A stretch of DNA of 64,000 nucleotides from an uncultured Clostridia bacterium. Lineage in GTDB: Bacteria > Bacillota > Clostridia > Oscillospirales > Oscillospiraceae. The notes beneath the pieces are model-generated. The model saw nothing but the letters and a program-made list of their open reading frames with translations. It searched no databases and was not told the origin of the DNA. This document shows, piece by piece, positions 2,764 through 49,286 of the stretch; positions within the stretch are counted from its first letter, which is position 1, and each line of letters opens with the position of its first letter. The stretch spans positions 39,638 through 103,637 of the forward strand of contig CAMZIO010000002.1 of assembly GCA_947307255.1 (NCBI GenBank), given 5' to 3'. The position numbers and the translations under genes are program-made.

Positions 2764-3264
2764 ATGAGACTTACCGCATATGACCGCGCTGCGGCCGTTC
2801 GCTACGCGCATACCTGGGCCTATGGCAGAAATCCGCGCTTTTACGACTATGAGGATATCGGCGGAGACTGCACCAACTTTGCCTCACAGTGCCTTTTGGC
2901 AGGGGGAGGTGTGATGGATTATACCCCGACGTTCGGCTGGTACTATATTGACGCCAATCGCAAATCACCCTCCTGGACGGGGGTAACGTATCTGTATAAT
3001 TTTCTCACGCGCGCAAGAGACAGCGTCGGCCCGGCCGCGCGCGACACTTCAATTTGGGAGATGCAGCCCGGCGATATCATACAGCTTTCCTTTAACGGCG
3101 TTGCCTGGCAGCACTCGCCCGTCGTCGTCGCAGTGGAAACGCCCGGATCGGCAGACGGTATTCTGGTTGCCGCGCACACTTACGATGCGGATAATCGCCC
3201 GCTTTCGACCTACGAATACCGAAGCGTGCGTTTTCTGCATATCACCGGCGTCTATCGCCCGTAA
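2764..3264 (+). CDS. Amidase-domain protein (putative amidase_6 family)
   Basis: A 166-residue protein matching the putative amidase domain family (amidase_6). The family signature GDCTNFASQ (about residues 39-47) carries the likely catalytic Cys, and the later QHSPVVV supplies a His. No signal peptide or membrane segment is visible, so the stand-alone domain may act inside the cell or on the developing spore, where similar proteins are common in Clostridia. The start has an AAGGGGGAG site. It converges with the recombinase gene, whose stop lies about 26 bases away. Substrate is not known from the sequence. Confidence 0.75.
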   Translation: MRLTAYDRAAAVRYAHTWAYGRNPRFYDYEDIGGDCTNFASQCLLAGGGVMDYTPTFGWYYIDANRKSPSWTGVTYLYNFLTRARDSVGPAARDTSIWEMQPGDIIQLSFNGVAWQHSPVVVAVETPGSADGILVAAHTYDADNRPLSTYEYRSVRFLHITGVYRP

Positions 3265-3290
3265 CGCAGGCAGGGCAGGAGGGGAGGACG

Positions 3291-4304
3291 TCAGGTTTCG
3301 CCCTTTGGCGTTTTTTTGACCCGCGAGAGGGGATTGGCTTTTGCCGCCACGCGCAGCGCCTCGTTGTCGATGTGGGTATAGATTTCCGTGGTATTGAGAT
3401 GATCGTGTCCCAGAACCTCCTGCACGGCGCGCACGTCCACGCCGTTTTGCAGCATCAACGTCGCCGCGGTATGGCGCAGCTTGTGAGAGGAATACTGCGC
3501 GGCGTCCAGCCCGGCGGCGGAGATGTGCTTTTTTACCAGCGCGTGCACGGTGGATTTGCTGATGCGCTCGTTGCGCGAGGACAGAAACAGCGCGTTTCGA
3601 TCGCGCCCCGCAATGGGACGGCGCACGGCCAGATAGGACGCCAGCGCCTCCTTGCAGGCGTCATTGAGATAGACGATGCGCACTTTATTGCCCTTGCCGA
3701 GCACGCGCATGGCCTCGCCCTGTATATCCGGCAGATCCAGACCGCACAGCTCGGAAATTCGCAGCCCACAGTTCAAAAACAGGGTTAAAATGCAATAATC
3801 ACGCTCTTTATTCTGACCGTCTACCGATTCCAGCAGATGGATACTTTCATCCAGCGTGAGATACTTCGGCAGACTTTTTTTCAGCTTCGGCGCGTCCAAA
3901 TCTTTCACCGGATTGTCTCGAATCAAATGCGCTTTATTCGTCAAATAGTTGTAAAAAGACCGAATTGTTGATATTTTTCTGGCTCTTGATGCTGCATTCA
4001 GACCAAAACCGGAGTTTTCGCTGTTTTGATGCAGCACGCGCTCTCGGCTCAAATAGGTCATATAACTGTAAATATCGGTAAGCGTTACAGATTGAACAAA
4101 ATCTAAATCCACGTCCAGAATAGAGATCTCGCTCAGCTCGCACGTACGCAGAGCGGGATCGCGCAGCTGCTTGAGATAGCGGAAAAAATTACGCAAATCC
4201 AAAAAGTATTCGTCGACGGTCTTGGCAGAATGACCCTTGATGGTCTCGTGATAAGCGAGAAAATCGCGTAAAATCTGCGGTGATTCCAAACGGTAATCCA
4301 TCAT
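3291..4304 (-). CDS. Tyrosine recombinase, XerC/XerD family
   Basis: A 337-residue tyrosine recombinase. The N-terminal SAM-like core-binding domain covers about residues 5-105. The catalytic set is complete: Arg in CGLRISELCGL, Lys in GKGNKVR, His and Arg in HKLRHTAAT, His in LGHDHLNTT and the nucleophile Tyr in EIYTH. Length and architecture fit a Xer protein resolving chromosome dimers rather than a phage integrase, and it lies outside the prophage. I chose the ATG at 4304 because AAGGAG precedes it by seven bases; the longer ORF adds an untranslated-looking extension. An unusually long leader and a near-consensus promoter lie upstream. Confidence 0.85.
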   Translation of the reverse strand: MMDYRLESPQILRDFLAYHETIKGHSAKTVDEYFLDLRNFFRYLKQLRDPALRTCELSEISILDVDLDFVQSVTLTDIYSYMTYLSRERVLHQNSENSGFGLNAASRARKISTIRSFYNYLTNKAHLIRDNPVKDLDAPKLKKSLPKYLTLDESIHLLESVDGQNKERDYCILTLFLNCGLRISELCGLDLPDIQGEAMRVLGKGNKVRIVYLNDACKEALASYLAVRRPIAGRDRNALFLSSRNERISKSTVHALVKKHISAAGLDAAQYSSHKLRHTAATLMLQNGVDVRAVQEVLGHDHLNTTEIYTHIDNEALRVAAKANPLSRVKKTPKGET

Positions 4305-7161: not shown

Positions 7162-7695
7162 GTGGAATCCACCACAAAACCGGGGAAGCCGAACACTGAC
7201 GCAGCATCCGCTTCCCGTCCGGCTAACACCACGCCGGCTGCCTCTACTTCAACGAACGCCGCCTCGTCAGATCGGTGCGGTATGGGCAGCGGTATGCTGC
7301 CTGCGTGCGCACCGCTGGCGTTTCCTTATGTACCGATGCAGGAGAACAATCCCGACCGCTATTCCCAGCAGGACGCCATGCGCGCCGGTACCCTGTTTCC
7401 GGGGCTGCATCTTCCCTTCCATCAGGAGCTTGACACACGCTTCCCGGCGTCGAATACTGCGCTTTCTGAGTTGATGGCGCTGGATTTTGCCGTCGATGAG
7501 CTTGGTTTATATCTCACGACGCATCCGAATGACGCGGAAGTGCTGGATCTTTACTGGTCGTATATCCGCCTTTCCCGCGAGGGGCGTGAAAAGTACCAGC
7601 AGATGTATGGCCCGCTGCTGCAGACCGATATCACGCCGCAGGAGTACAAGTGGCTCAAAGACCCATGGCCCTGGGATGTAGGAGGGGATCGCTGA
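7162..7695 (+). CDS. Spore coat protein, CotJA-CotJB fusion
   Basis: A 177-residue protein starting with GTG behind AAGGAGGAG. Residues 1-45 are Ser/Thr/Ala/Pro-rich. Residues about 50-92 match CotJA (LAFPYVPMQ then AMRAGTLFPGLHLPF). Residues about 98-175 match CotJB (LDFAVDELGLYLTTHPND, YGPLL and the C-terminal KDPWPWD). In B. subtilis CotJA and CotJB are separate mother-cell proteins that assemble with CotJC into the coat; here they are one chain. The stop overlaps the cotJC start as TGATG, so the genes are translationally coupled. It is divergent from the cwlD-like gene. Confidence 0.85.
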   Translation: MESTTKPGKPNTDAASASRPANTTPAASTSTNAASSDRCGMGSGMLPACAPLAFPYVPMQENNPDRYSQQDAMRAGTLFPGLHLPFHQELDTRFPASNTALSELMALDFAVDELGLYLTTHPNDAEVLDLYWSYIRLSREGREKYQQMYGPLLQTDITPQEYKWLKDPWPWDVGGDR

Positions 7696-7802
7696 TGTTT
7701 GTCTATGAAAAGAAACTGCAATATCCGGTAAAGATCAAAACGCCGAACCCCAAGCTTGCTATGGCGATTATTTCTCAGTACGGTGGACCTTACTACAATT
7801 AA
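7695..7802 (+). pseudogene. cotJC: cotJC, 5' fragment cut by the prophage
   Basis: Starts MFVYEKKLQYPVKIKTP, the standard CotJC N-terminus, behind GGAGGGG. After Gly-Gly-Pro (codons 30-32) the host sequence ends at the att core and the frame reads three phage-encoded residues and a stop, giving 35 residues. It lacks every metal ligand expected for this manganese-catalase-like coat protein. The missing part begins at 48777 in the correct frame, so precise excision would restore a protein of about 198 residues. Interrupted gene rather than a decayed one. Confidence 0.93.
7782..7789 (+). repeat. attL core
   Basis: GGTGGACC, within codons 30-32 of cotJC. The central dinucleotide is GG (7785-7786), with symmetric arms GGT and ACC as expected for a serine-integrase crossover site. 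Host sequence lies to the left and phage sequence to the right. Confidence 0.88.
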
Positions 7803-8026: not shown

Positions 8027-8064
8027 GAAGAAGGCAGCACCACTCGGTGCTGCCTTCTTCTTTT
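8027..8064. terminator. Bidirectional terminator between converging genes
   Basis: A perfect 15-bp stem, GAAGAAGGCAGCACC with its complement (8027-8041 and 8046-8060), a loop ACTC and then TTTT on the plus strand. It ends both the plus-strand transcript from the cotJ side and the minus-strand late operon. Confidence 0.88.
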
Positions 8065-11000
8065 ATCCTCCCAGCGACGGCAGGCTCAGCCCGCCCCCTC
8101 TGGCATTGCCGAGTTCCTTTGCATCCAGCACCTGCTGGCCGATGCTCCGGCTGTACGGATTGTTCTTCGCGCTCTTCGACGTTGTCATCAACTGCCACAG
8201 TACCGCACTGTGATTGCTCGGCAGTCCCGCATTTCCTCCCAGTGTTGGCAGGCTCAGCCCACGTACCGCGCCGCCCATGGCGTCGATGGCCGCCTTCACT
8301 TCGTCCTGGCTGTAGCTTCCGTTCTGGTTGGCATCATACTCCGGCATGATCTCCTTGAGTTTGACGTAGCTCTCCGGCTGCACGCCGAACCTGTGCGCGA
8401 TCTCGATCTTTTTATACTGATCTTCCGGCATGACCACGCTCAGCGCCTGCATCTGTTTCTCCGCGCCGCTCACCGCGTCCAGTGCTGCGCGCCACTTCTG
8501 CACGTCGCTAACCTCTTTCTTACCTTCCTGCGGTTTCAGTCCGCCTATCCCCTCGGCTACGCTTACCGCCGTCTTGATATCAAGCCCGGCGTCCTTGTAC
8601 TCCAGCACCTTCCCGAGATCCATGCCGTCGGCCCGAAGTCTCATCGCCTGCGAAGGGTCCAGCCCCGCGTCCATCGCTCGAAGCAGCTTCGCGTACTGTG
8701 TCGGATTTCCGCCGTCCGTCTCCAGATCGGTCCCCATGACGTACCCCGCCGCGACCTTCGTCTGCTCCTTGTTCAGCTTCATTCCTGCCAGCGTGCTCAG
8801 CTTGTCCGCCGTACCGCCCGCATCCTTGAGCGTCATCACAACCTCGCCAGCCCGCCCGCTGTCCATGCCGGCGTCGGTCATGGCATCCATACCTTCGCGC
8901 TCCTTATCGCTGGCGAGCAGGCCGTAGAATACAATCGCCTTGCCCTTGTCGTTTATGTTGGACGACTGCAGGATCTCCCTCTGGCGCTCCGCCTTGCTCT
9001 GCTCATCTCCTGCCTTTGCGCTTCTCAGCTCGTCGATCAGGCCATACGCCTCGCGGCTTTTCACGCCTGCCGCGGTCAGATCCTCATAGATCGCCGTCTG
9101 CTTCGCGCTCAGGCTGTTGAAACCGTTGTTGACCCACTCGCGCGCTGGCTTCAGGCTGCTCTTTCCGAAAAACAGCGCCCTGGCGATGTTCCCCGCCGTC
9201 TCCGCTTTGGAGTTGTTGAACACGGGATACTGCAGCACCTTGTCGCCGTTGCTGTCCATCGAATAGCTTCCGCCCTCGATGATCGCCTTCGTGCCTTTCC
9301 ATGCCTTTTGCAGTTGGTTCCCGCCGAACGGCAGCGCCGCGTAGATCAGCGGCTTGCTCAGCTCTTTCCCCGCCGTGCTCAGACGCTTCTTTCCGCTCCA
9401 CTTGTCGTTCACCGCGGCCTTGGCCAGATTCTCCACGTCCGGCAGCGAGCTGCTGATCGGGATACGCCCGCCGCCGAGGATCCCGCCGACCATCGGCAGC
9501 TCGTCCACAGCGTTCTTGGCCAGATTGCCCAGCGCCTCATACGTCCCGGTCTTCTCCGTTTTCAGCGACCTGTCCTCGCCGGTGATCGCTTCGATCATAT
9601 TGGGCAGTTCATACCCGGTCAGATCTCCAGCCGTTTCGTTCAAAATGCCGATGGGGTCCAGCGCGCATCTGCGCCCGACGAAATACTCGTAAACGTCGTT
9701 GAAAAGGTATGCCCCCAGGAAGTATTTCAGCAGCGTTCCGACGAGCACCGCCATACCTCTTTCCCTGGCCACCTTCGGCAGATCCTTGAACACCTCGCTG
9801 AACTGATTGTTCACCTCCAGCTGGAACTGCGTGAACAGCTTCACAATCGGATTGCTGGACTGGAACAGCGTCGGCATGCTGCCCTTGCTCCGGTCCGCCA
9901 TCACGCGCCGGGCGAATGCGTCGGCGTCGTCCATGGCCGCCTGCTCGCTCATGTTGTGCCGAAGATTCTGGTTGTAACGTGCGCGCACGATGCTGTCCGA
10001 AGCAAACCTGTCGATCAGCTCCATCGGCGTGCCCAGCACACCGGAGGCCTTTTGCTGCCAGTTTTTCACCAGCGGATCCGTCCCGCGCCTGCTCGTCAGA
10101 AAGGCCGACCGCTCCGCAAATCCGTCTTTGTTCTTGTAGGCCTGCAGCGTCTGCCACATGCCCTTGAGGATCTGCCCGCTCTCCAGCTGCGCGTTGGCCT
10201 GCGTCAGCGGGATGAAGTTGGTCAGCGCGCTGCCGATGTTGCCCGCGATCATATTGGCGCCCACGCGGCTTTCCCAGTTTTTCATGATCGTATAGGCGCG
10301 CCGCCCGATCATGGCCTCCATGTTGCGGTCGTACTTGCTCTTCTTGTTGGCCAGCAGGTTGGTGTACTCCTCCAGCTCGTTGACGAAGTTGCCCAGCTCG
10401 AACTTGCCGTGCTCATAGATGGCGTCTATCTTTGTTTGCTTCTCGTCCTCCGTCAGCCGTTTGTCCTGCAGCACCTCGTCCACCTGCTTGCGGATTCCCT
10501 CGTCGCTCGTGCGATAGCGGATCTGCTGCGAAAGCGCGCGCAGGTTCTGGATGTTGTCGGTGTGGAAAATCACGTCGCCGGCGCCCTGCACGTACTTGTC
10601 AAAGCCCTCCACCGCGTCGTACGCCGTGTTGAAGCCCAGGCGCTCCTGCGCGTTTCCAAACCATGCGATCCCCGGCTTGAAGGTGTGCGTCAGGCCGTTG
10701 ATGGTCGTCGGCAACGCGGTGATCTCCGTCGTGATCCCCATCGCCTTTCCAAACTGCGTGAGGATTCCGTCGCTGCTCCCCGGCTGGAAGTGCGGGAAGT
10801 ACCCGTGGCGGTAGTTGATCGGCTCGTAGCCGTTGCGGACGCGCACCTCGTTCATCCGCTCAAAAAGCTCGTCATAGATGTCGCGGAAGTTCTGCACCGC
10901 CTGCTCGATCTTGGCAAAGTCCAGGTTCGGATTCTGCTCCTTCAGGTTCTCCACGATCCCCTGCCAGTCGCTCAGCGTCTTGCCGTCCCGCTCGCGCAGG

Positions 11001-14000
11001 CGGCCGCGGCTTTTCTGCAGCATTTCGATGTTGTCCGTCGCCTCGCCCAGCAGCTGCACGGCGTGCGCCTCGCTGACCTCGTTGCCCTGTTCGATCTTTC
11101 TGGAAAGGTTCATCTTCCGCACGCGGTCGCGCATCTCGTTGAGCCAGCGCGTCTTGTTCGCCTCGGCCTTATGTACCGGCTCGATGTACGCCTCGGTGAT
11201 CCGCTTTGCTCCGGCCTTGTCCCGGAACACGTCCTCGATGTTGCGCTCCATCGTTTCGCGGGACAGAAGCAGCCCTGCGATCTTGTCCTTCGTATGCCCT
11301 GCCTCTCGCAGCATGGCGTCGGCGCTCTCCCGCCGCGCGGCGCGGATCGAGCGCTTGAACTCGCGCAGCTGCTCAGCGTATTGCTCATACTCCCTCTTCG
11401 CCTCATAGACCTCGCGGATCCCCTTCGCGTTGCTGTCTCCCGGCAGGGACTCCGGTGTGATCTCGCCGCGCAGCAGCCTGCCGACCAGCAGCTCGTCGCT
11501 CTCCGTCAGCAGGTTGCGGCTCACCGCGCGGTCCACACCGCGCCGCAGCTGCTTCACCTGCTTCCAGGTCTCTTTCGCCTCGGCCACAGTCAGGATCTTC
11601 TTTTGCGGCTTCTCCGCTTTCTTATCCGCGTCATAGCGGCGCACCGTGCGCAGCTCCGTCAGCGTCTGGTTCACCGCCTCGGCAAAGTCGTTCTTTGCCC
11701 ACGCCTTGAAGTCCTTGCCGTTCTGCTCGTCCAGCGTCTTCTCCACGCGGTCTGTGCTCTGCGATACCTCCAGCATTCGCCGCAGCTGATCCGCCGGGCG
11801 CGTGATATCCGCCGGGAACATATCCGGCGCCATGTCCTGCAGCTGCTCATAGGCCACGTCCACCGGAAGCCCGCCCGAATTGACGATCTTCAGCCTCCCC
11901 GTTGCACTCCTGCGCCAGTCTCCCCAATCCGTGAAGTCGGCCTTGTCCGTCTCGCTGATCGTTACCGCCGTCGTGCGCATCCGGTTCCGGACCTCTTTGT
12001 ACGTGTCATACATCTCGCTGTCCACGATCCGCCCCTGCTCCCAGGCTGTCTCAAACAGCCGGTCCACGGTCTCCTGCGAAACGCTGCCGCTTTGCAGGTA
12101 CTCGTCGCTCATTTCCCGCACCATGCCCTGCAAATAATCCCGCCGCGCCCAGCTTTGCACGTCCAGCGCACCGCTGATGCGCCGCAGCATGGCATTCTCC
12201 GTGCGCTTGAGATAGTCCCTCGCCTTTTGCGGCAGCGTGTCGCGCACATTCTCCGCGGTCTCCTGCGCGCTGTCCTCGATGCTGAACGCCTTCTTCCCGC
12301 CGTCCTCCATGCCCAGCTGCCGCGCAATCTCGCGCTGGAACGGCGTGCGGGTATCCGTTTTCTCCAGTGTCGGCAAACTCAGCCCTCTTACATTTTTCTG
12401 TTTAATTTCCTTGACATCTTGCCCGCTGTCTGGTACAGTATCGCCAGAGACCAGCGGCTCTGGACGGCTTTTCTTGGCTTCGGCCAAATCAGTCACGCGA
12501 CGCTGGTCTTGTTCTGTGTAAATGCGATGTACCCAAAACAAATTGCGTTGCGGGCTTTGCCGAATGTCAATATAGACCGGATAGGTTTCTCCTCCAATCT
12601 GCACGTCAGCCTTGATATAGCTGTACGTCAGATTGGAGTTTTGATTATGTTCATTAGCCTGATCCAGCGCTACAATTTTGCCGTTTTCAATAATCTCCGG
12701 CAGCATCCTTGCCGCAGCCAACTTCAGCTCTTTGATTTTCCTCGGAAGCGTTTCGTACCTGTTTCCTCTTCCGAACGTCTCAAAGATGCCTCGCTTGCTG
12801 ATTTCAACGTTTCTGCCGGTCGCGTTGTTGGTGACTATCCTGCGCCCATCCGGTCCCAAGATACCTTCGTTTTTCAGCGTGTCAAAAACCTGGTTCTGAA
12901 CGTGAACGTAATCGTTCACCTTTTCGATCCCGAAGCCCTGCAGCAACTGTTGCGCTTCCTCGTCGCTGATGCTGTACTCCCTCAGCATAGACACGTCGTT
13001 CAGGCTCTCGTCCTCCTCCAGTGCGTCCATGGCTTCGTTGTATTCCTCCTCGGTCAGCTCCCCGGCCTCCAGACGTGCCGCCAGATCCTCGCGGCCCCGG
13101 TTTACCTGCTCGTTCACCCGCCCGGCCTCATAGTTCCCGCGCGTCTCACTGAGCGCACGGCTGTAAAGCTCCCGCGTCCGCCGCAGGAAGGCGCGCTCCT
13201 CCGCGTTCTTGTTGCCCAGCTTGGCCAGCAGTGCGTCGATCACGTTCAATATCCGCTCGCCGAAGCTCGGCTCATAGGCCACGATCTCCCGGATAGCTGC
13301 CTCGTCCGTCAGCAGCCTTTTCTCCACGAACTCGGCCACCAGCTCCCGCTCCGCGCTCTCCCGGTCCAGCGTAACGCCGTGGCGCGCGTAGCTCTCCTGC
13401 TTGCGCGTCAACGCCTGCGCAAGGTCCTCCTGCCCGCCGATGCGGTTGAGAATCATGCTCTTGATCCGCGCGTAATCCGCCGCGCCCTCCAGTGTGTGCG
13501 TCAGCTCGTGCCCCACGATCTGTGAAACGGCGTTGCCGCTGTTCACGTTCACGTAGATCTTCCCGCTCTTTCGATCGAAGTAACCGTTCTCTCCGGCGTC
13601 GCCCTGATAGAATACGACCTCCCGGCCGATGGCCTCGCTCAGCCGCTGCACGCGCTCCGTGGTCTCGCGGTCCACGTTCAGCACCCTTGCCGACCATACG
13701 AAATCCGTCTCCGGTTCCATGCCCATCTGCCGCGCGACCTCGCGCTGGAAGTCCGTGCGGTTATCCTGCCTGTTCTGGGCTTGTGCCGTCTCCCCCTGAA
13801 AATATCTCCCAAGGTTTGGAAACTGCTGAGCATCAAAAGGCTTTGCCTGCTGCGCAGTCTCCGTCTGTGCCGTCTGCGGCTCCTGTGCCGCCGGACGGTT
13901 TTTTTCATTTTCTGCAGAAGTCTCCGGCGCTTTATCCGTCTGCTGAATCCTGCGCGCCTCGTCCGTCGCCTGCCGCAGCAGCACGCCCACCTCGCGGTCG

Positions 14001-15391
14001 CTCACGCTCTCGCCGCGCGCAATCTTATCCTGGATGATCTGCGCGCTCTTGCTCGTTTCGTCGCCCATGCCGAGACCCATCTGCACCAGGTCGTTGAGCA
14101 TCCCCTGCTGCTTGATCGCCGCGCCGGTCTCCTGGTATGCGCGCTCCAGCTTCGCCTTTTGTGCCGTGCTGTTCACACCGCTTGCGGCCAGCGCCTGCCC
14201 GCCGCCGAGCACGCCGCCGACCACCGCGCCGCCGGCATACTCCTGTGCGGACGTCCGCGGGTTAAGCACTGCGTTCTCGTCCGTCAGCGAGGCGATCGGA
14301 TTCTTTTTCCCGTAGGCAAGGTTCTGCAGGCCTCGCTCCACAATGCCCTGCCAGACTTCCTCTCCGCCCTCCTCGTGCGCCGCTTTCAGCCAACGCTTGA
14401 AGGTCATCGGGCCTTCCTTCAGCTCGCCCGGCAGCGTCTCAAGACCGCCGCCTACTTCGATTGCTGCGTTGCCCAAACCGTTTGTGAGCGCGTAGAGCGA
14501 CGCCTGCATCTCGCTTGCACCGTCCTCCTTTGCCTGTGCATAGCTGTTTCCCGCCGTCTGCAGGAAGCTCGTCCAGTACTGTGGATTCTTCGCGTAACTC
14601 ATGGCAATCTGCCGCACGCTGTTGAGGATCGTTGGGCTCGCCTGCGCCGCCGTCGACAGAGCCTCCAGCCCTTGTCCGCCCAGGCTCATGCCGCCGCTCA
14701 TGAACGCGCTGACCGCCTGCGGGATCGCCGCCACCGTTGCCGCGCCGTATCGGTCGAGGAGTTCTGCCGCCTTACCGCCTTTTTCGATGTTTTCCGCGTA
14801 CTTTTTTTCTGCCGCCTGCTGCTCGCGTTTGATTCCCTCGTTCCACTTGTAAAAAACGCCGTGCTGCTCCTGCAGATCGTCAAGACCGGTCAGCGCCTCC
14901 GGAACGGCAAAGAGCGCCTTTTCCAGCCACGACAGCGTTTCGGACATACCGCGCGCTGCACTTGTCGTGCCCTTCTCCGCCATTCCTGCGAGGAGCTTCC
15001 CTGCAGAAAAGCCCGTCCCGCTTTTCTGCTGCAGCGCACCGCGGCGCGGGTCAATTCGCCGCGCACGTTCCCGCGCCGTTTCTTCTTCGCCCCCGCCGAC
15101 CGTCTCCGTCTCTGCCGTTGGCTCAATCACACGCTCCCGCGCATAGGATTCCTGTTTCTTGCGCTGTTCTATCTCCGCCGCCCGCGCGCGCAGGCGGTCT
15201 CTCGCACTCGTTTCCTGCTGCCCCTGCATCCGCTCTACCGTGCGCGCCGCGTCCAGCAGATCAAGCATCTGGTTTCGCTGCTGCCTCTCTATCTCCGGCT
15301 GTGCTTTAATCTCCGGAAGGGCAGCGGCGCGCCGGCGCAGACGATCTCTCGCTGTGCCGGCGCCGTTATTGTTGAAATATCCCAGTGGCAT
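8063..15391 (-). CDS. Giant phage polyvalent / DNA-ejection protein with metallopeptidase motif
   Basis: A 2442-residue protein, last in the late operon, where podoviruses encode proteins injected with the DNA. The N-terminus has three charged repeats of the type ARDRLRxRAA. A zinc-peptidase motif HELTH lies near residue 628. Residues about 820-1003 form a more A/T-rich module (RGIFETFGRGNRYETL, then QSPQRNLFWVHRIY) resembling domains of polyvalent proteins. Long helical regions follow. The C-terminal part has short repeats and an EF-hand-like loop DANQNGSYSQDE. The linker GLSLPTL recurs three times. Individual activities are not proven. Start ATG has a GGAGGAG site. Confidence 0.75.
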   Translation of the reverse strand: MPLGYFNNNGAGTARDRLRRRAAALPEIKAQPEIERQQRNQMLDLLDAARTVERMQGQQETSARDRLRARAAEIEQRKKQESYARERVIEPTAETETVGGGEEETARERARRIDPRRGALQQKSGTGFSAGKLLAGMAEKGTTSAARGMSETLSWLEKALFAVPEALTGLDDLQEQHGVFYKWNEGIKREQQAAEKKYAENIEKGGKAAELLDRYGAATVAAIPQAVSAFMSGGMSLGGQGLEALSTAAQASPTILNSVRQIAMSYAKNPQYWTSFLQTAGNSYAQAKEDGASEMQASLYALTNGLGNAAIEVGGGLETLPGELKEGPMTFKRWLKAAHEEGGEEVWQGIVERGLQNLAYGKKNPIASLTDENAVLNPRTSAQEYAGGAVVGGVLGGGQALAASGVNSTAQKAKLERAYQETGAAIKQQGMLNDLVQMGLGMGDETSKSAQIIQDKIARGESVSDREVGVLLRQATDEARRIQQTDKAPETSAENEKNRPAAQEPQTAQTETAQQAKPFDAQQFPNLGRYFQGETAQAQNRQDNRTDFQREVARQMGMEPETDFVWSARVLNVDRETTERVQRLSEAIGREVVFYQGDAGENGYFDRKSGKIYVNVNSGNAVSQIVGHELTHTLEGAADYARIKSMILNRIGGQEDLAQALTRKQESYARHGVTLDRESAERELVAEFVEKRLLTDEAAIREIVAYEPSFGERILNVIDALLAKLGNKNAEERAFLRRTRELYSRALSETRGNYEAGRVNEQVNRGREDLAARLEAGELTEEEYNEAMDALEEDESLNDVSMLREYSISDEEAQQLLQGFGIEKVNDYVHVQNQVFDTLKNEGILGPDGRRIVTNNATGRNVEISKRGIFETFGRGNRYETLPRKIKELKLAAARMLPEIIENGKIVALDQANEHNQNSNLTYSYIKADVQIGGETYPVYIDIRQSPQRNLFWVHRIYTEQDQRRVTDLAEAKKSRPEPLVSGDTVPDSGQDVKEIKQKNVRGLSLPTLEKTDTRTPFQREIARQLGMEDGGKKAFSIEDSAQETAENVRDTLPQKARDYLKRTENAMLRRISGALDVQSWARRDYLQGMVREMSDEYLQSGSVSQETVDRLFETAWEQGRIVDSEMYDTYKEVRNRMRTTAVTISETDKADFTDWGDWRRSATGRLKIVNSGGLPVDVAYEQLQDMAPDMFPADITRPADQLRRMLEVSQSTDRVEKTLDEQNGKDFKAWAKNDFAEAVNQTLTELRTVRRYDADKKAEKPQKKILTVAEAKETWKQVKQLRRGVDRAVSRNLLTESDELLVGRLLRGEITPESLPGDSNAKGIREVYEAKREYEQYAEQLREFKRSIRAARRESADAMLREAGHTKDKIAGLLLSRETMERNIEDVFRDKAGAKRITEAYIEPVHKAEANKTRWLNEMRDRVRKMNLSRKIEQGNEVSEAHAVQLLGEATDNIEMLQKSRGRLRERDGKTLSDWQGIVENLKEQNPNLDFAKIEQAVQNFRDIYDELFERMNEVRVRNGYEPINYRHGYFPHFQPGSSDGILTQFGKAMGITTEITALPTTINGLTHTFKPGIAWFGNAQERLGFNTAYDAVEGFDKYVQGAGDVIFHTDNIQNLRALSQQIRYRTSDEGIRKQVDEVLQDKRLTEDEKQTKIDAIYEHGKFELGNFVNELEEYTNLLANKKSKYDRNMEAMIGRRAYTIMKNWESRVGANMIAGNIGSALTNFIPLTQANAQLESGQILKGMWQTLQAYKNKDGFAERSAFLTSRRGTDPLVKNWQQKASGVLGTPMELIDRFASDSIVRARYNQNLRHNMSEQAAMDDADAFARRVMADRSKGSMPTLFQSSNPIVKLFTQFQLEVNNQFSEVFKDLPKVARERGMAVLVGTLLKYFLGAYLFNDVYEYFVGRRCALDPIGILNETAGDLTGYELPNMIEAITGEDRSLKTEKTGTYEALGNLAKNAVDELPMVGGILGGGRIPISSSLPDVENLAKAAVNDKWSGKKRLSTAGKELSKPLIYAALPFGGNQLQKAWKGTKAIIEGGSYSMDSNGDKVLQYPVFNNSKAETAGNIARALFFGKSSLKPAREWVNNGFNSLSAKQTAIYEDLTAAGVKSREAYGLIDELRSAKAGDEQSKAERQREILQSSNINDKGKAIVFYGLLASDKEREGMDAMTDAGMDSGRAGEVVMTLKDAGGTADKLSTLAGMKLNKEQTKVAAGYVMGTDLETDGGNPTQYAKLLRAMDAGLDPSQAMRLRADGMDLGKVLEYKDAGLDIKTAVSVAEGIGGLKPQEGKKEVSDVQKWRAALDAVSGAEKQMQALSVVMPEDQYKKIEIAHRFGVQPESYVKLKEIMPEYDANQNGSYSQDEVKAAIDAMGGAVRGLSLPTLGGNAGLPSNHSAVLWQLMTTSKSAKNNPYSRSIGQQVLDAKELGNARGGGLSLPSLGG

Positions 15392-43952: not shown

Positions 43953-44567
43953 ATGCCGATTAGCGATATGCTAAAAGCTCGTCGAGCAGAGCTCGACCTT
44001 ACTTTGGAAGACGTTGCCAAGATCGTCGGCGTCACTCGTGCAACCATACAAAAATATGAAAATGGCATCATCTCCAATATCCCATCCGACAAGATTGAAG
44101 CCTTGGCAAAAGCCCTTAAAACCACGCCATCTTACCTGATGGGTTGGGATAACGATCTCCCTGATAATATCCTTCCCATGCCGCACACTCGGCGCGTCCC
44201 TCGCCTCGGCACGATCGCCTGCGGCACGCCCATCACCGCCGAGGAAAACTTTGACGGTTATGATGAGGTGCCCGACTGGGTGCACTGCGACTTCACCCTC
44301 ACCTGCAAGGGCGACAGCATGATCAACGCCCGCATCTATGACGGGGATATCGTCTGCATCCGCCGCCAGGATACGGTTGAGACCGGCGAGATCGCCGCCG
44401 TCCTGATCGACAACGAGGCCACGCTCAAGCGCGTCCGCCTCTTTGACGATCACATCGTCCTGGAAGCGGAGAATCCCACCTTCCGCCCCCTTGTCTACTG
44501 GGGCGAAGAGATGTCCAACGTCCGCATCCTCGGCAAGGCCACACACTTCATCAGCACGGTCAGATAA
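43953..44567 (+). CDS. Phage repressor, XRE helix-turn-helix with S24 peptidase domain
   Basis: A 204-residue CI/LexA-like repressor. The helix-turn-helix covers about residues 5-60 (LTLEDVAKIVGVTRATIQKY). The S24 domain has the cleavage-type Cys-Gly at 90-91 (GTIACGTPI), catalytic Ser122 in CKGDSMINARI and Lys159 in ATLKR, so RecA-stimulated self-cleavage after DNA damage is expected. The ATG at 43953 has AAAGGCGG ahead; the track start is eight codons early. Divergent from the Cro-like gene. Confidence 0.9.
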   Translation: MPISDMLKARRAELDLTLEDVAKIVGVTRATIQKYENGIISNIPSDKIEALAKALKTTPSYLMGWDNDLPDNILPMPHTRRVPRLGTIACGTPITAEENFDGYDEVPDWVHCDFTLTCKGDSMINARIYDGDIVCIRRQDTVETGEIAAVLIDNEATLKRVRLFDDHIVLEAENPTFRPLVYWGEEMSNVRILGKATHFISTVR

Positions 44568-44596: not shown

Positions 44597-46945
44597 ATGA
44601 CTTGGGCTGAATATCGTTTATCTGCTATTGAAAGTGCCTCGCTCTATTACGATTACTTAAAGAACTCCAAAAAAGGAATTTCAGAGTCCGGTGTTTCCGG
44701 AGTTTCGGTCAGCAATTCCGGAGAGGTTACGCTGATTCTCTCCTCAAAACTATTCTCCACAGATGAAATCCAGCTTCGTATCCGAGGGGAATTGTACCCG
44801 CCGGGTAGTTTTATCGTGCGTTTTTACGACCGGCTGAAAAATAAGCTGCTGCTCAAGCCGAATAGACTTCTGCTTTCTCTCTTCCACGAAGCCATTCCCG
44901 CCGAGATTGCCGTGATATCCGACCTCACCTTTCTCGTCAAACGTGTGCGCGACTGGTACGAGCAGCATGATCGCCGGCTCAGCCTCCCTTCATCTCCGCC
45001 GTCTCTGTCTCCTGATATGCCGTCTCTCCGTTCAAATCCATCTGTCGAGCAATCAGCCGCTTTTTATGGGATATTTCAATCCCCTCTTTGCTATGTTTGG
45101 GGAGCTCCCGGCACCGGCAAAACGCAGTTTGTTCTTGCCCGCGCCGTTCTGGCATATTGCAAGGCCGGTATTCAGATTCTCATTACCGCACCAACGAACA
45201 ACGCGGTCGAGCAGACGCTCAGGGGCGTGCTTGCCGTTCTGAAAGAAGCCGACGTCCCTTTAGAGCAAGTTCTCCGGCTCGGTACCCCATCGAAAGAGTT
45301 TTACGACGAGTACCCTATGGTATGCGAAAACCGTGCCGCCGAATACAAGCAGGAAAGCCTTGCTGCGCAGATCAGCTTTTACCAGCGCGCCCTCACATTT
45401 TTCGACACAGCAGATTGGTTCAACAATGCACAACTCATTCTTTCCCATAGCGATCAAGTCATTCGCCAGTCCACCAGCGCACTGCACGAACTGGATCAGC
45501 GGCTGAATGATCTCACGTCCAAGCTGAATTTAAAGAATGCTTCCCTTGCTCCTGTCGTATCCCTCATCAACCAGACGACTGCCGAAAAAACCGGTCTGCT
45601 CAATTATCTCAACAAGCCCCGTTCCGCTTTCTCTGCTTGGCTCAGCCGACCGTCTTTGGATCGCGCCCGGCATCGTCTTGCTGAAATAGATCGTGATTTA
45701 CAGCAAGACGCAGCCGATTATGCCCATACGCTCAGTGAATGCGAGGAGTTCCAGCGGCAAATTGATTCTCTCACCAATCAGCGCAGTAAGATCTCTTCCG
45801 AATTGTCAGACGCCTGCAGTGCTCTCCAATGTATTCCGCCCTGTCCGGTTCCCTTAAAATTCTCAGATATTGTCTTCTCGACCTCCTTTGAAACTTTTAA
45901 ATTTCTGGAAGATGCCCAAACTGCACTGTTAGCTCTAAAGCAGTTACTGAATCAGCAATCTTACCAATACTCTGATATTACAAGAGAAGATGCGATTTCC
46001 AACCTTTCGGCCCTTTCTCAGCAGATTGAAATGCTCCAGGCAGAGTCTCCTCTTTCCAATCTGTCCAGCCGTCTCGTCGTTGCCGCAACGGTCGACGCCT
46101 GCATTTCGCGTCTTTCCGACACAGAATTTCATCCCGCACACATTTTTTTGGATGAGGCAGCCTATTGCCCGCTGATCAAAGGTACAACGCTTCTCTCTTA
46201 CAACGTTCCCCTCTCTCTCTTCGGCGATCACATGCAGCTTCCTCCGATCTGCGAAGCTCCCATTGATTCCACACGCGCTTTCGACGATCTAATGCCCGTT
46301 TGTCTTTGGGCGCAATCTTCTCTTTTTCTTCCCGATTTGTTCACCAAGCCATTGGAAGAAATTTTCAGCGACTACAAAAGCGCTACTCCTCCCAAATCGG
46401 CTAAATTGGAGCGATATGACCTGCTCCACACTTTCCGCTTCGGTGAGTCTTTATCAAAAGTTCTTTCACGCTTCGTCTACGCCAGCGATTTTCACGGCAA
46501 CCCTGCCGTCGATACTGACATTGTGATTCTTGACGTCCCGAAGCAGCGTTCCGATGACAGCAATACAAATCGCTTCGAGTGCCTTGCGATTAAAAACTTC
46601 ATAGCTGCCCACTCCACGGACAAATATGCCGCTCTTACTCCTTTCCGAAAGCAACGTGCGCTTTTGTCAAAGTATATCAACCCCAATCTCGTTTTTACGA
46701 TCCACGGCTCACAAGGCCGCGAATGGGACACCGTCTTTCTCAGTGTTACCGTCACTACAAATCACTGGTTTCTTACGCCCCGTTTGATCAACACCGCAAT
46801 CAGCCGCGCAAAGAAACGGTTGATTATCGTATGCGATAAAGAATACTGGGCTCGTCAAGAAGATCATATCATTGGTGGTCTGATCTCCGCCGCCGAGTCC
46901 AATCCGAGGTTAACTCTTCATGCAAAAAAAGAGCAAACAAATTAA
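44597..46945 (+). CDS. SF1 (UPF1/DNA2-like) helicase; candidate defence gene
   Basis: A 782-residue superfamily 1 helicase with all motifs: Walker A GAPGTGKT (169-176), ITAPTNNAVEQ, DEAA-box FLDEAAYC (~518), LFGDHMQLPP (~540), LTPFRKQ, HGSQGREWD (~702) and NTAISRAKKRL (~732). A coiled-coil insertion of about 140 residues sits between the first motifs. Base composition is more A/T-rich than the neighbouring phage genes. Position between repressor and integrase is where prophages carry lysogeny-expressed defence genes. Overlaps the following small membrane-protein gene by 26 bases, implying coupled function. Exact role unknown. Confidence 0.85.
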   Translation: MTWAEYRLSAIESASLYYDYLKNSKKGISESGVSGVSVSNSGEVTLILSSKLFSTDEIQLRIRGELYPPGSFIVRFYDRLKNKLLLKPNRLLLSLFHEAIPAEIAVISDLTFLVKRVRDWYEQHDRRLSLPSSPPSLSPDMPSLRSNPSVEQSAAFYGIFQSPLCYVWGAPGTGKTQFVLARAVLAYCKAGIQILITAPTNNAVEQTLRGVLAVLKEADVPLEQVLRLGTPSKEFYDEYPMVCENRAAEYKQESLAAQISFYQRALTFFDTADWFNNAQLILSHSDQVIRQSTSALHELDQRLNDLTSKLNLKNASLAPVVSLINQTTAEKTGLLNYLNKPRSAFSAWLSRPSLDRARHRLAEIDRDLQQDAADYAHTLSECEEFQRQIDSLTNQRSKISSELSDACSALQCIPPCPVPLKFSDIVFSTSFETFKFLEDAQTALLALKQLLNQQSYQYSDITREDAISNLSALSQQIEMLQAESPLSNLSSRLVVAATVDACISRLSDTEFHPAHIFLDEAAYCPLIKGTTLLSYNVPLSLFGDHMQLPPICEAPIDSTRAFDDLMPVCLWAQSSLFLPDLFTKPLEEIFSDYKSATPPKSAKLERYDLLHTFRFGESLSKVLSRFVYASDFHGNPAVDTDIVILDVPKQRSDDSNTNRFECLAIKNFIAAHSTDKYAALTPFRKQRALLSKYINPNLVFTIHGSQGREWDTVFLSVTVTTNHWFLTPRLINTAISRAKKRLIIVCDKEYWARQEDHIIGGLISAAESNPRLTLHAKKEQTN

Positions 46946-47273
46946 AACAGACCGCGACTTCATCAGCGCCATGCGCACGATGGTTAAGCGCGTACGCGAT
47001 GGGCTCCCTGCATTGCCTGAGAATCCAACATCTCAAGATCTTGAAATACTTACCGAGTGCATAAATCAGGGATATCTTCTTTCCAGCTATGAGCATAACG
47101 GCGAAAAAGTCTTCCGCACAACGGACGGTCTTCCTCATCCAAAGATTATTCCCGGCACCGTTCCCCTCAAAGGGCTTGCATTCATTTCGTTTAAGATCGA
47201 CTTGAAGTTCTTTATACCAACCCTTATCTCGCTTGCCGCTCTTGTTGTTTCCATCGTTTCTCTATTTAAGTAA
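46920..47273 (+). CDS. Small C-terminally anchored membrane protein, helicase partner
   Basis: A 117-residue protein. Residues 1-90 are basic and soluble-looking (MKRVRDGLPALPENPTSQD-type sequence, then YLLSSYEHNGEKVF). The last ~25 residues form one membrane segment (FIPTLISLAALVVSIVSLF). It begins inside the helicase gene. A membrane effector working with a nucleic-acid-sensing helicase is a plausible reading, but no family was recognised. Confidence 0.7.
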   Translation: MQKKSKQIKTDRDFISAMRTMVKRVRDGLPALPENPTSQDLEILTECINQGYLLSSYEHNGEKVFRTTDGLPHPKIIPGTVPLKGLAFISFKIDLKFFIPTLISLAALVVSIVSLFK

Positions 47274-48776: not shown

Positions 48777-48784
48777 GGTGGACC
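48777..48784 (+). repeat. attR core
   Basis: GGTGGACC, identical to attL. With the left side taken from 48751-48779 and the right side from 7787-7806, the reconstructed attP has an imperfect inverted repeat around the central GG in which 15 of the first 20 positions match. Confidence 0.88.
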
Positions 48785-49286
48785 GGATGGAGAGCTCGGT
48801 GCATCGCTGCGCTATCTCAGTCAACGTTTTTCCATGCCTTATCCAGAACTAAAAGGTCTTCTGACCGATATCGGCACCGAGGAACTGGGCCATTTGGAAA
48901 TGGTCGGTACGATCGTTCATCAGCTCACGCGGGAGCTGAGCGAGGAGCAGATCAAGGCCGCGGGGTTCGACACCTATTTTGTCGATCGCACTACCGGCGT
49001 CTACCCCACCGCCGCGTCCGGTTTTCCGTACAGCGCGGCGTCCATGGCGGTTAAGGGCGACCTGATCGCAGACCTCACGGAGGATTTGGCCGCGGAGCAA
49101 AAGGCACGCGTAACCTACGACAATATCCTGCGCCTGAGCGACGATCCCGACGTCAGCGACGTCATCCGCTTCCTGCGCGCCCGCGAAATCGTCCACTTCC
49201 AGCGCTTTGGCGAAGGGCTTCGCCTCGCACGGGAAAAGCTGGACGAAAGAAACGTTTATTATATCAATCCCAGCTTTGACAAATAA
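48777..49286 (+). pseudogene. cotJC: cotJC, 3' fragment beyond the prophage
   Basis: Continues CotJC in frame from the Gly-Gly-Pro codons: DGELGASLRYLSQRFSMP, then DIGTEELGHLEMVGTIVHQL and YDNILRLSDDPDVSDVIRFL with REIVHFQRFGEG. These carry the Glu and His ligands expected of a manganese-catalase-like di-metal site. In the lysogen the fragment has no start signal of its own; the track's Met at 48834 lies inside the domain. Excision would restore expression from the cotJ operon. No internal stop or frameshift, so the split gene has been kept intact. Confidence 0.92.

Follow-up and report, generated by a model that had tools for sequence, protein, structure and literature searches.

What is a UPF1-like helicase doing in the lysogeny block of a clostridial prophage, and is the small gene that overlaps its end a partner or a bystander? 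The window, by which we mean the whole 64,000-nucleotide stretch analysed, comes from an uncultured Clostridia bacterium and holds a 41-kb prophage that interrupts the spore-coat gene cotJC, its bounds being marked by two copies of an 8-bp core, GGTGGACC (Table 1). The terminase, portal, head and endolysin genes of this prophage lie on the minus strand, and the repressor, the helicase, the small gene and the integrase follow one another on the plus strand, opposite to the structural genes. At the left prophage end, an open reading frame of 2442 residues (window 8063-15391, minus strand) has no PHROG match at 1e-5. The cotJC site is also used by related serine integrases at two of the other loci collected here, L036 and L183; in the latter (L183:4893-8812), what remains at cotJC is a remnant of about 3.7 kb with its related serine integrase.

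Table 1. Features of the prophage ends and of the lysogeny block (window coordinates).
Feature	Position	Strand	Evidence or context
Left attachment core GGTGGACC	7782..7789	+	end of cotJC 5' part (7695-7790)
Lysogeny repressor	43953..44567	+	Pfam Peptidase_S24 8.5e-23, HTH_3 8.2e-15
UPF1-like SF1 helicase, 782 aa	44597..46945	+	Pfam, family alignment, PDB profile search, AF2 model, Foldseek
Orphan protein, 117 aa, C-terminal membrane segment	46920..47273	+	ORF, hydropathy
Large serine integrase, 486 aa	47290..48750	+	Pfam Resolvase 5.7e-25, Recombinase 9.9e-26, Zn_ribbon_recom 2.8e-08
Right attachment core GGTGGACC	48777..48784	+	start of cotJC 3' part (48777-49286)

A preliminary description of this DNA had placed the two genes between repressor and integrase and had called them more A/T-rich than their neighbours, and both statements hold: Pfam identifies the flanking genes as an S24 repressor and a serine integrase, and the GC content falls from 0.563 in the repressor to 0.494 in the helicase and 0.449 in the small gene before rising to 0.625 in the integrase. 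Third codon positions follow the same course (GC3 of 0.72, 0.52, 0.49 and 0.82, respectively), so that helicase and small gene share a composition unlike that of their flanks. The block is tightly packed, with 29 bases between the end of the repressor and the helicase and 16 between the small gene and the integrase. The repressor reading frame was listed from 43929, and the start given in Table 1, which has a ribosome-binding site, is probably the true one. A promoter scan of the region returned a signal near chance level.

The helicase itself is a UPF1-like member of superfamily 1, with UPF1 and IGHMBP2 as its nearest solved relatives, an assignment that sequence profiles and a structural model support together. 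Pfam recognizes AAA_11 (5.8e-16), AAA_12 (1.5e-10) and UvrD_C_2 (9e-10), and a profile search of solved structures finds IGHMBP2 (1.1e-30), UPF1 (1.6e-27) and ZNFX1 (2.7e-20). As the preliminary description had claimed, the catalytic motifs are there: motifs I, Ia, II, III, V and VI are present on two RecA domains, and the alignment of the family conserves GAPGTGKT, APTNNA, DEAAY, GDHMQLPP, FRF, HGSQGRE and NTAISRA. An AlphaFold2 model built on 41 relatives (mean pLDDT 88.2) matches senataxin, IGHMBP2 and UPF1 in Foldseek and begins with a helix and a beta barrel. The coiled-coil insertion proposed earlier appears in this model as a hairpin (residues 244-411) of two very long helices, 244-338 and 351-411, between motifs Ia and II, and designed antiparallel coiled coils are among the matches to this stretch in the PDB profile search. 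Among solved structures the eukaryotic proteins UPF1, IGHMBP2, senataxin and ZNFX1 are thus the best matches in both sequence and fold, at 12-15% identity over the aligned columns, a level at which function need not be common; relative to them, the long coiled-coil arm of the prophage protein is an addition. No nuclease or other effector domain is apparent in the helicase, and the matches in PADLOC, Pfam, NCBIfam and PHROGs are confined to its generic core.

The small gene begins inside the helicase gene, the overlap being exactly 26 bases (46920-46945), and its product ends in a membrane segment, with a 19-residue hydropathy peak of 2.41 from residue 98; on both points the initial reading of the sequence was right. 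Such tails are not rare, since 22 distinct reading frames of 80-170 residues in the loci that we fetched end in a comparable hydrophobic stretch. That the gene is coding finds weak to moderate support: its frame is the sole positive one under a codon model trained on the helicase, and under a model trained on the window it is unremarkable. Modelled from its sequence alone (pLDDT 50), the protein is predicted to have two helices, then a hairpin and finally a helix at its C terminus (95-116); a winged-helix body would be a guess, and a fold search with that model yields no meaningful match.

We found no homologue of the small protein on searching 401 family genomes and the collections of viral, phage and plasmid sequences; neither the PDB at an E-value of 10 nor phages at 5 gave a match. 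The best weak scores were Pfam SAMP (0.045, over 12 residues) and a PHROGs match at 0.08. Three weak fragments from the 401 genomes were considered as homologues and dismissed, and a motif search for small, tail-anchored, winged-helix-like reading frames turned up no relative.

Used as a single query, the helicase found nothing in the genome, viral, phage and plasmid collections. Searching the 401 family genomes added five more full-length copies, 34-37% identical, so that six of these genomes, the window included, carry one. The alignment of these six members, which the wider search required, then reached 80 genome loci and two viral contigs; viral scans with sub-alignments found no contigs beyond those already in hand. 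Helicases with a long arm (an insert of about 207-380 residues) occur in Bacillota, Bacteroidota, Synergistota and Planctomycetota, and the family is rare in order- and class-wide samples. Its distribution is sporadic.

Within prophages, the helicase recurs in one place, the repressor-integrase slot in which the preliminary description had expected lysogeny-expressed anti-phage genes to lie. The order repressor, helicase, integrase on one strand recurs in eight further, divergent prophage loci (L038, L048, L051, L054, L059, L117, L118 and L203), with the repressor confirmed by Pfam in the window, L038, L048, L054 and L117, the integrase in the window, L038, L054 and L118, and the others recognized by eye. 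As L048 and L051 are near-identical, we count them as one lineage. Serine integrases occur among these loci and so, by eye, do tyrosine integrases, which argues that the arrangement does not stem from one recent phage. The block of L203 (4072-8171, reverse complement), in which repressor and helicase are followed by a tyrosine integrase, adjoins by eye an smpB-like gene in another family of the class. A tenth locus, L036, is inserted at cotJC and has only the end of the helicase, followed by an MNT-HEPN protein and a serine recombinase.

A slot of this kind is known from other phages. A defence hotspot between cI and the integrase has been described (PMC9122126), and in Staphylococcus aureus the cI transcript is the source of Tha (PMC11087260); the position and the probable lysogenic expression are shared with our helicase, and the genes themselves differ. 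Here, too, the repressor-integrase interval holds variable genes on the same strand, as prophage cargo slots do.

A related observation was made on chromosomes, where several long-arm copies of the helicase lie among defence genes. In L045 (4456-16791) the helicase has DruE (1728 bits) and a DruD-like gene on one side and a type IV restriction enzyme (2.7e-230) on the other, and in L046 (6277-18359) it comes after AbiEi/AbiEii, with the same DruE neighbour family as in L045. Type III-like modification genes are found near it twice, with a ResIII-type partner in L047 and a GmrSD-like gene in L052; an N6-methylase gene lies nearby in L049, a PDC-M42A-like gene in L060, and L066 combines a type I methylase with an interrupted helicase. 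This is a plain listing rather than an enrichment over a background rate, several of the neighbours were identified by eye, and at about ten long-arm loci the surrounding genes are ordinary.

The recurrence of the family both at the repressor-integrase slot and beside anti-phage systems leads us to regard the helicase as probably a defence gene. Our preferred reading, to which we would give a probability of roughly 55%, is that the prophage carries it as an anti-phage gene and that it belongs to a UPF1-like family, as yet without a name, whose members have a long coiled-coil arm. It might instead help phage replication, recombination or integration, or be a housekeeping-type helicase caught up by chance, with no part in defence. 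The short relatives in Helicobacter (loci L079-L116; about 530-620 residues, with hardly any insert in the two that were measured) lend some weight to this, since one neighbour family is common to 11 of 19 of these loci, as expected of a resident gene, and the generic similarity of the helicase to IGHMBP2 and RecD-type enzymes points the same way. By eye, the recurrent Helicobacter neighbour resembles the hydrogenase-maturation gene hypD. However, the prophage gene shares a strand with the repressor, the structural genes being on the other one, most related integrase loci lack the helicase, and its long-arm chromosomal copies lie among defence genes, and we consider a non-defensive role improbable. 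The preliminary description would have counted it against a defence pair if homologues of the helicase were mostly alone in housekeeping contexts: they are indeed mostly alone, but the housekeeping setting is not general, being found mainly in the short-arm Helicobacter branch and at about ten long-arm loci.

If the helicase is defensive, one asks whether it belongs to a system already named. Our reading of the literature on UPF1-like phage defence found nothing direct. The closest parallel is in the CoCoNuT systems, in which the UPF1-like helicase CnuH carries a coiled-coil insertion behind Walker A and is typically followed by CnuE, a fusion of a winged helix with an effector, and in which modelling puts the CnuE winged helix on the CnuH insertion (PMC11090510). 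Set against the published description of CnuH from types II and III, rather than in a direct sequence comparison, the prophage helicase is alike in its UPF1-like superfamily 1 core, its helical coiled-coil insertion after Walker A and its OB-like barrel. The small gene, like that for CnuE, lies downstream; it overlaps the helicase and may encode a winged helix with an effector. Unlike CnuH, the prophage helicase lacks SmpB-like or RNase-like N-terminal domains, and whereas the CoCoNuT effector is a nuclease, here it would be a membrane helix, in a partner that is missing from most relatives. Neither TerY-P genes nor those of McrBC type, the McrB-like GTPase CnuB and CnuC, adjoin the pair, whose flanking genes are the repressor and the integrase. 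We therefore do not call the pair a CoCoNuT, and membership was dropped, although by analogy the two proteins may work like a CoCoNuT helicase module.

Two other candidates were likewise set aside. MkoA of the Mokosh system is the best PADLOC match of the helicase (1.5e-29), but the match covers the helicase core only and begins at position 632 of the 1112 in the MkoA profile, the N-terminal part of MkoA being missing; a PLD domain is present in neither protein. The two-gene system of a helicase with DUF2290 likewise occupies the cI-integrase hotspot (PMC9122126), but the helicase there is UvrD-like and the prophage small protein is not DUF2290; a DUF2290-linked protein of 731 residues from the same genus has no similarity to our helicase.

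There remains the small protein, which the preliminary description had joined to the helicase as a candidate defence pair, a helicase sensor coupled to a membrane effector. On this account the two form one abortive-infection system, in which the helicase would sense phage nucleic acid and activate the small protein, whose membrane helix would then shut the cell down, as in a CnuH and CnuE arrangement with a membrane effector. The resemblance to CnuH/CnuE (PMC11090510), where a fused winged-helix effector typically follows the helicase, makes such a logic possible; it is also consistent with the 26-base overlap, the common low GC and GC3, and the loosely winged-helix-like succession of helices and hairpin in the model, confidence in which is only 50. 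But the pair is not conserved. The small protein is absent from every other helicase locus, including the nearest, L037 and L038, and other genes lie behind the helicase in the sister prophages. In most, the integrase follows directly; L118 has a reading frame of 55 residues, L059 and L035 a TIR protein (L035:11806-12702; PADLOC TIR-TM 1.2e-62), and L036 the MNT-HEPN protein mentioned above (3210-3866, minus strand; Pfam 9.4e-35). The TIR and MNT-HEPN proteins thus hold the position between helicase and integrase that the small membrane protein has in the window. We consider a single two-gene system plausible but somewhat unlikely.

The same succession of genes can be read as independent cargo, the helicase, the small protein and whatever replaces the latter having gathered separately in a variable slot, with the small protein doing an unrelated job, such as excluding superinfecting phages at the membrane, or none at all. 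By eye, the slot beside this integrase clade does hold many unrelated genes (small membrane proteins and toxin-antitoxin-like, NYN-like and restriction-like genes), and the helicase has no conserved partner; the overlap and common composition, on the other hand, suggest that the two genes arrived jointly. We keep this as a tentative possibility, short of even odds. The probabilities of these readings overlap with that of the preferred one, because both are about the small protein and leave room for a helicase that is defensive.

Anatomy, motif conservation and the recurring context are observed directly; for the prophage-carried anti-phage helicase that we favour, we infer expression in the lysogen, defence activity, substrate and contact between the two proteins along the following lines. 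Lying directly behind the repressor, the helicase is probably co-transcribed with it, and would on that account be made in the lysogen. It would most likely load on single-stranded nucleic acid, RNA or ssDNA, exposed by an invading phage, and its ATP-driven translocation could disrupt phage replication or gene expression, in most bearers alone. The lack of a conserved partner favours a helicase able to act by itself, with add-ons optional. The small protein, found nowhere else, may be such optional cargo: membrane-anchored and coupled by gene overlap, it may serve as an adaptor, or as an effector, that docks on the coiled-coil arm in the way suggested for CnuE and CnuH.

Coiled-coil UPF1-like helicases have been described in CoCoNuTs, and here a related architecture stands as a one-gene cassette, in the lysogeny block of divergent prophages and in defence islands, without the rest of that system. 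A further step, for which we hold out little expectation, would make it a stand-alone branch of CnuH-like helicases that docks interchangeable effectors, be they a membrane helix, TIR or MNT-HEPN, on its arm; if true, one nucleic-acid sensor would lead to different cell shutdowns, outside any McrBC system. If the helicase does protect its host, it would be a compact system in which to study how helicases of this kind recognize phage nucleic acid and whether the effectors behind them are exchangeable.
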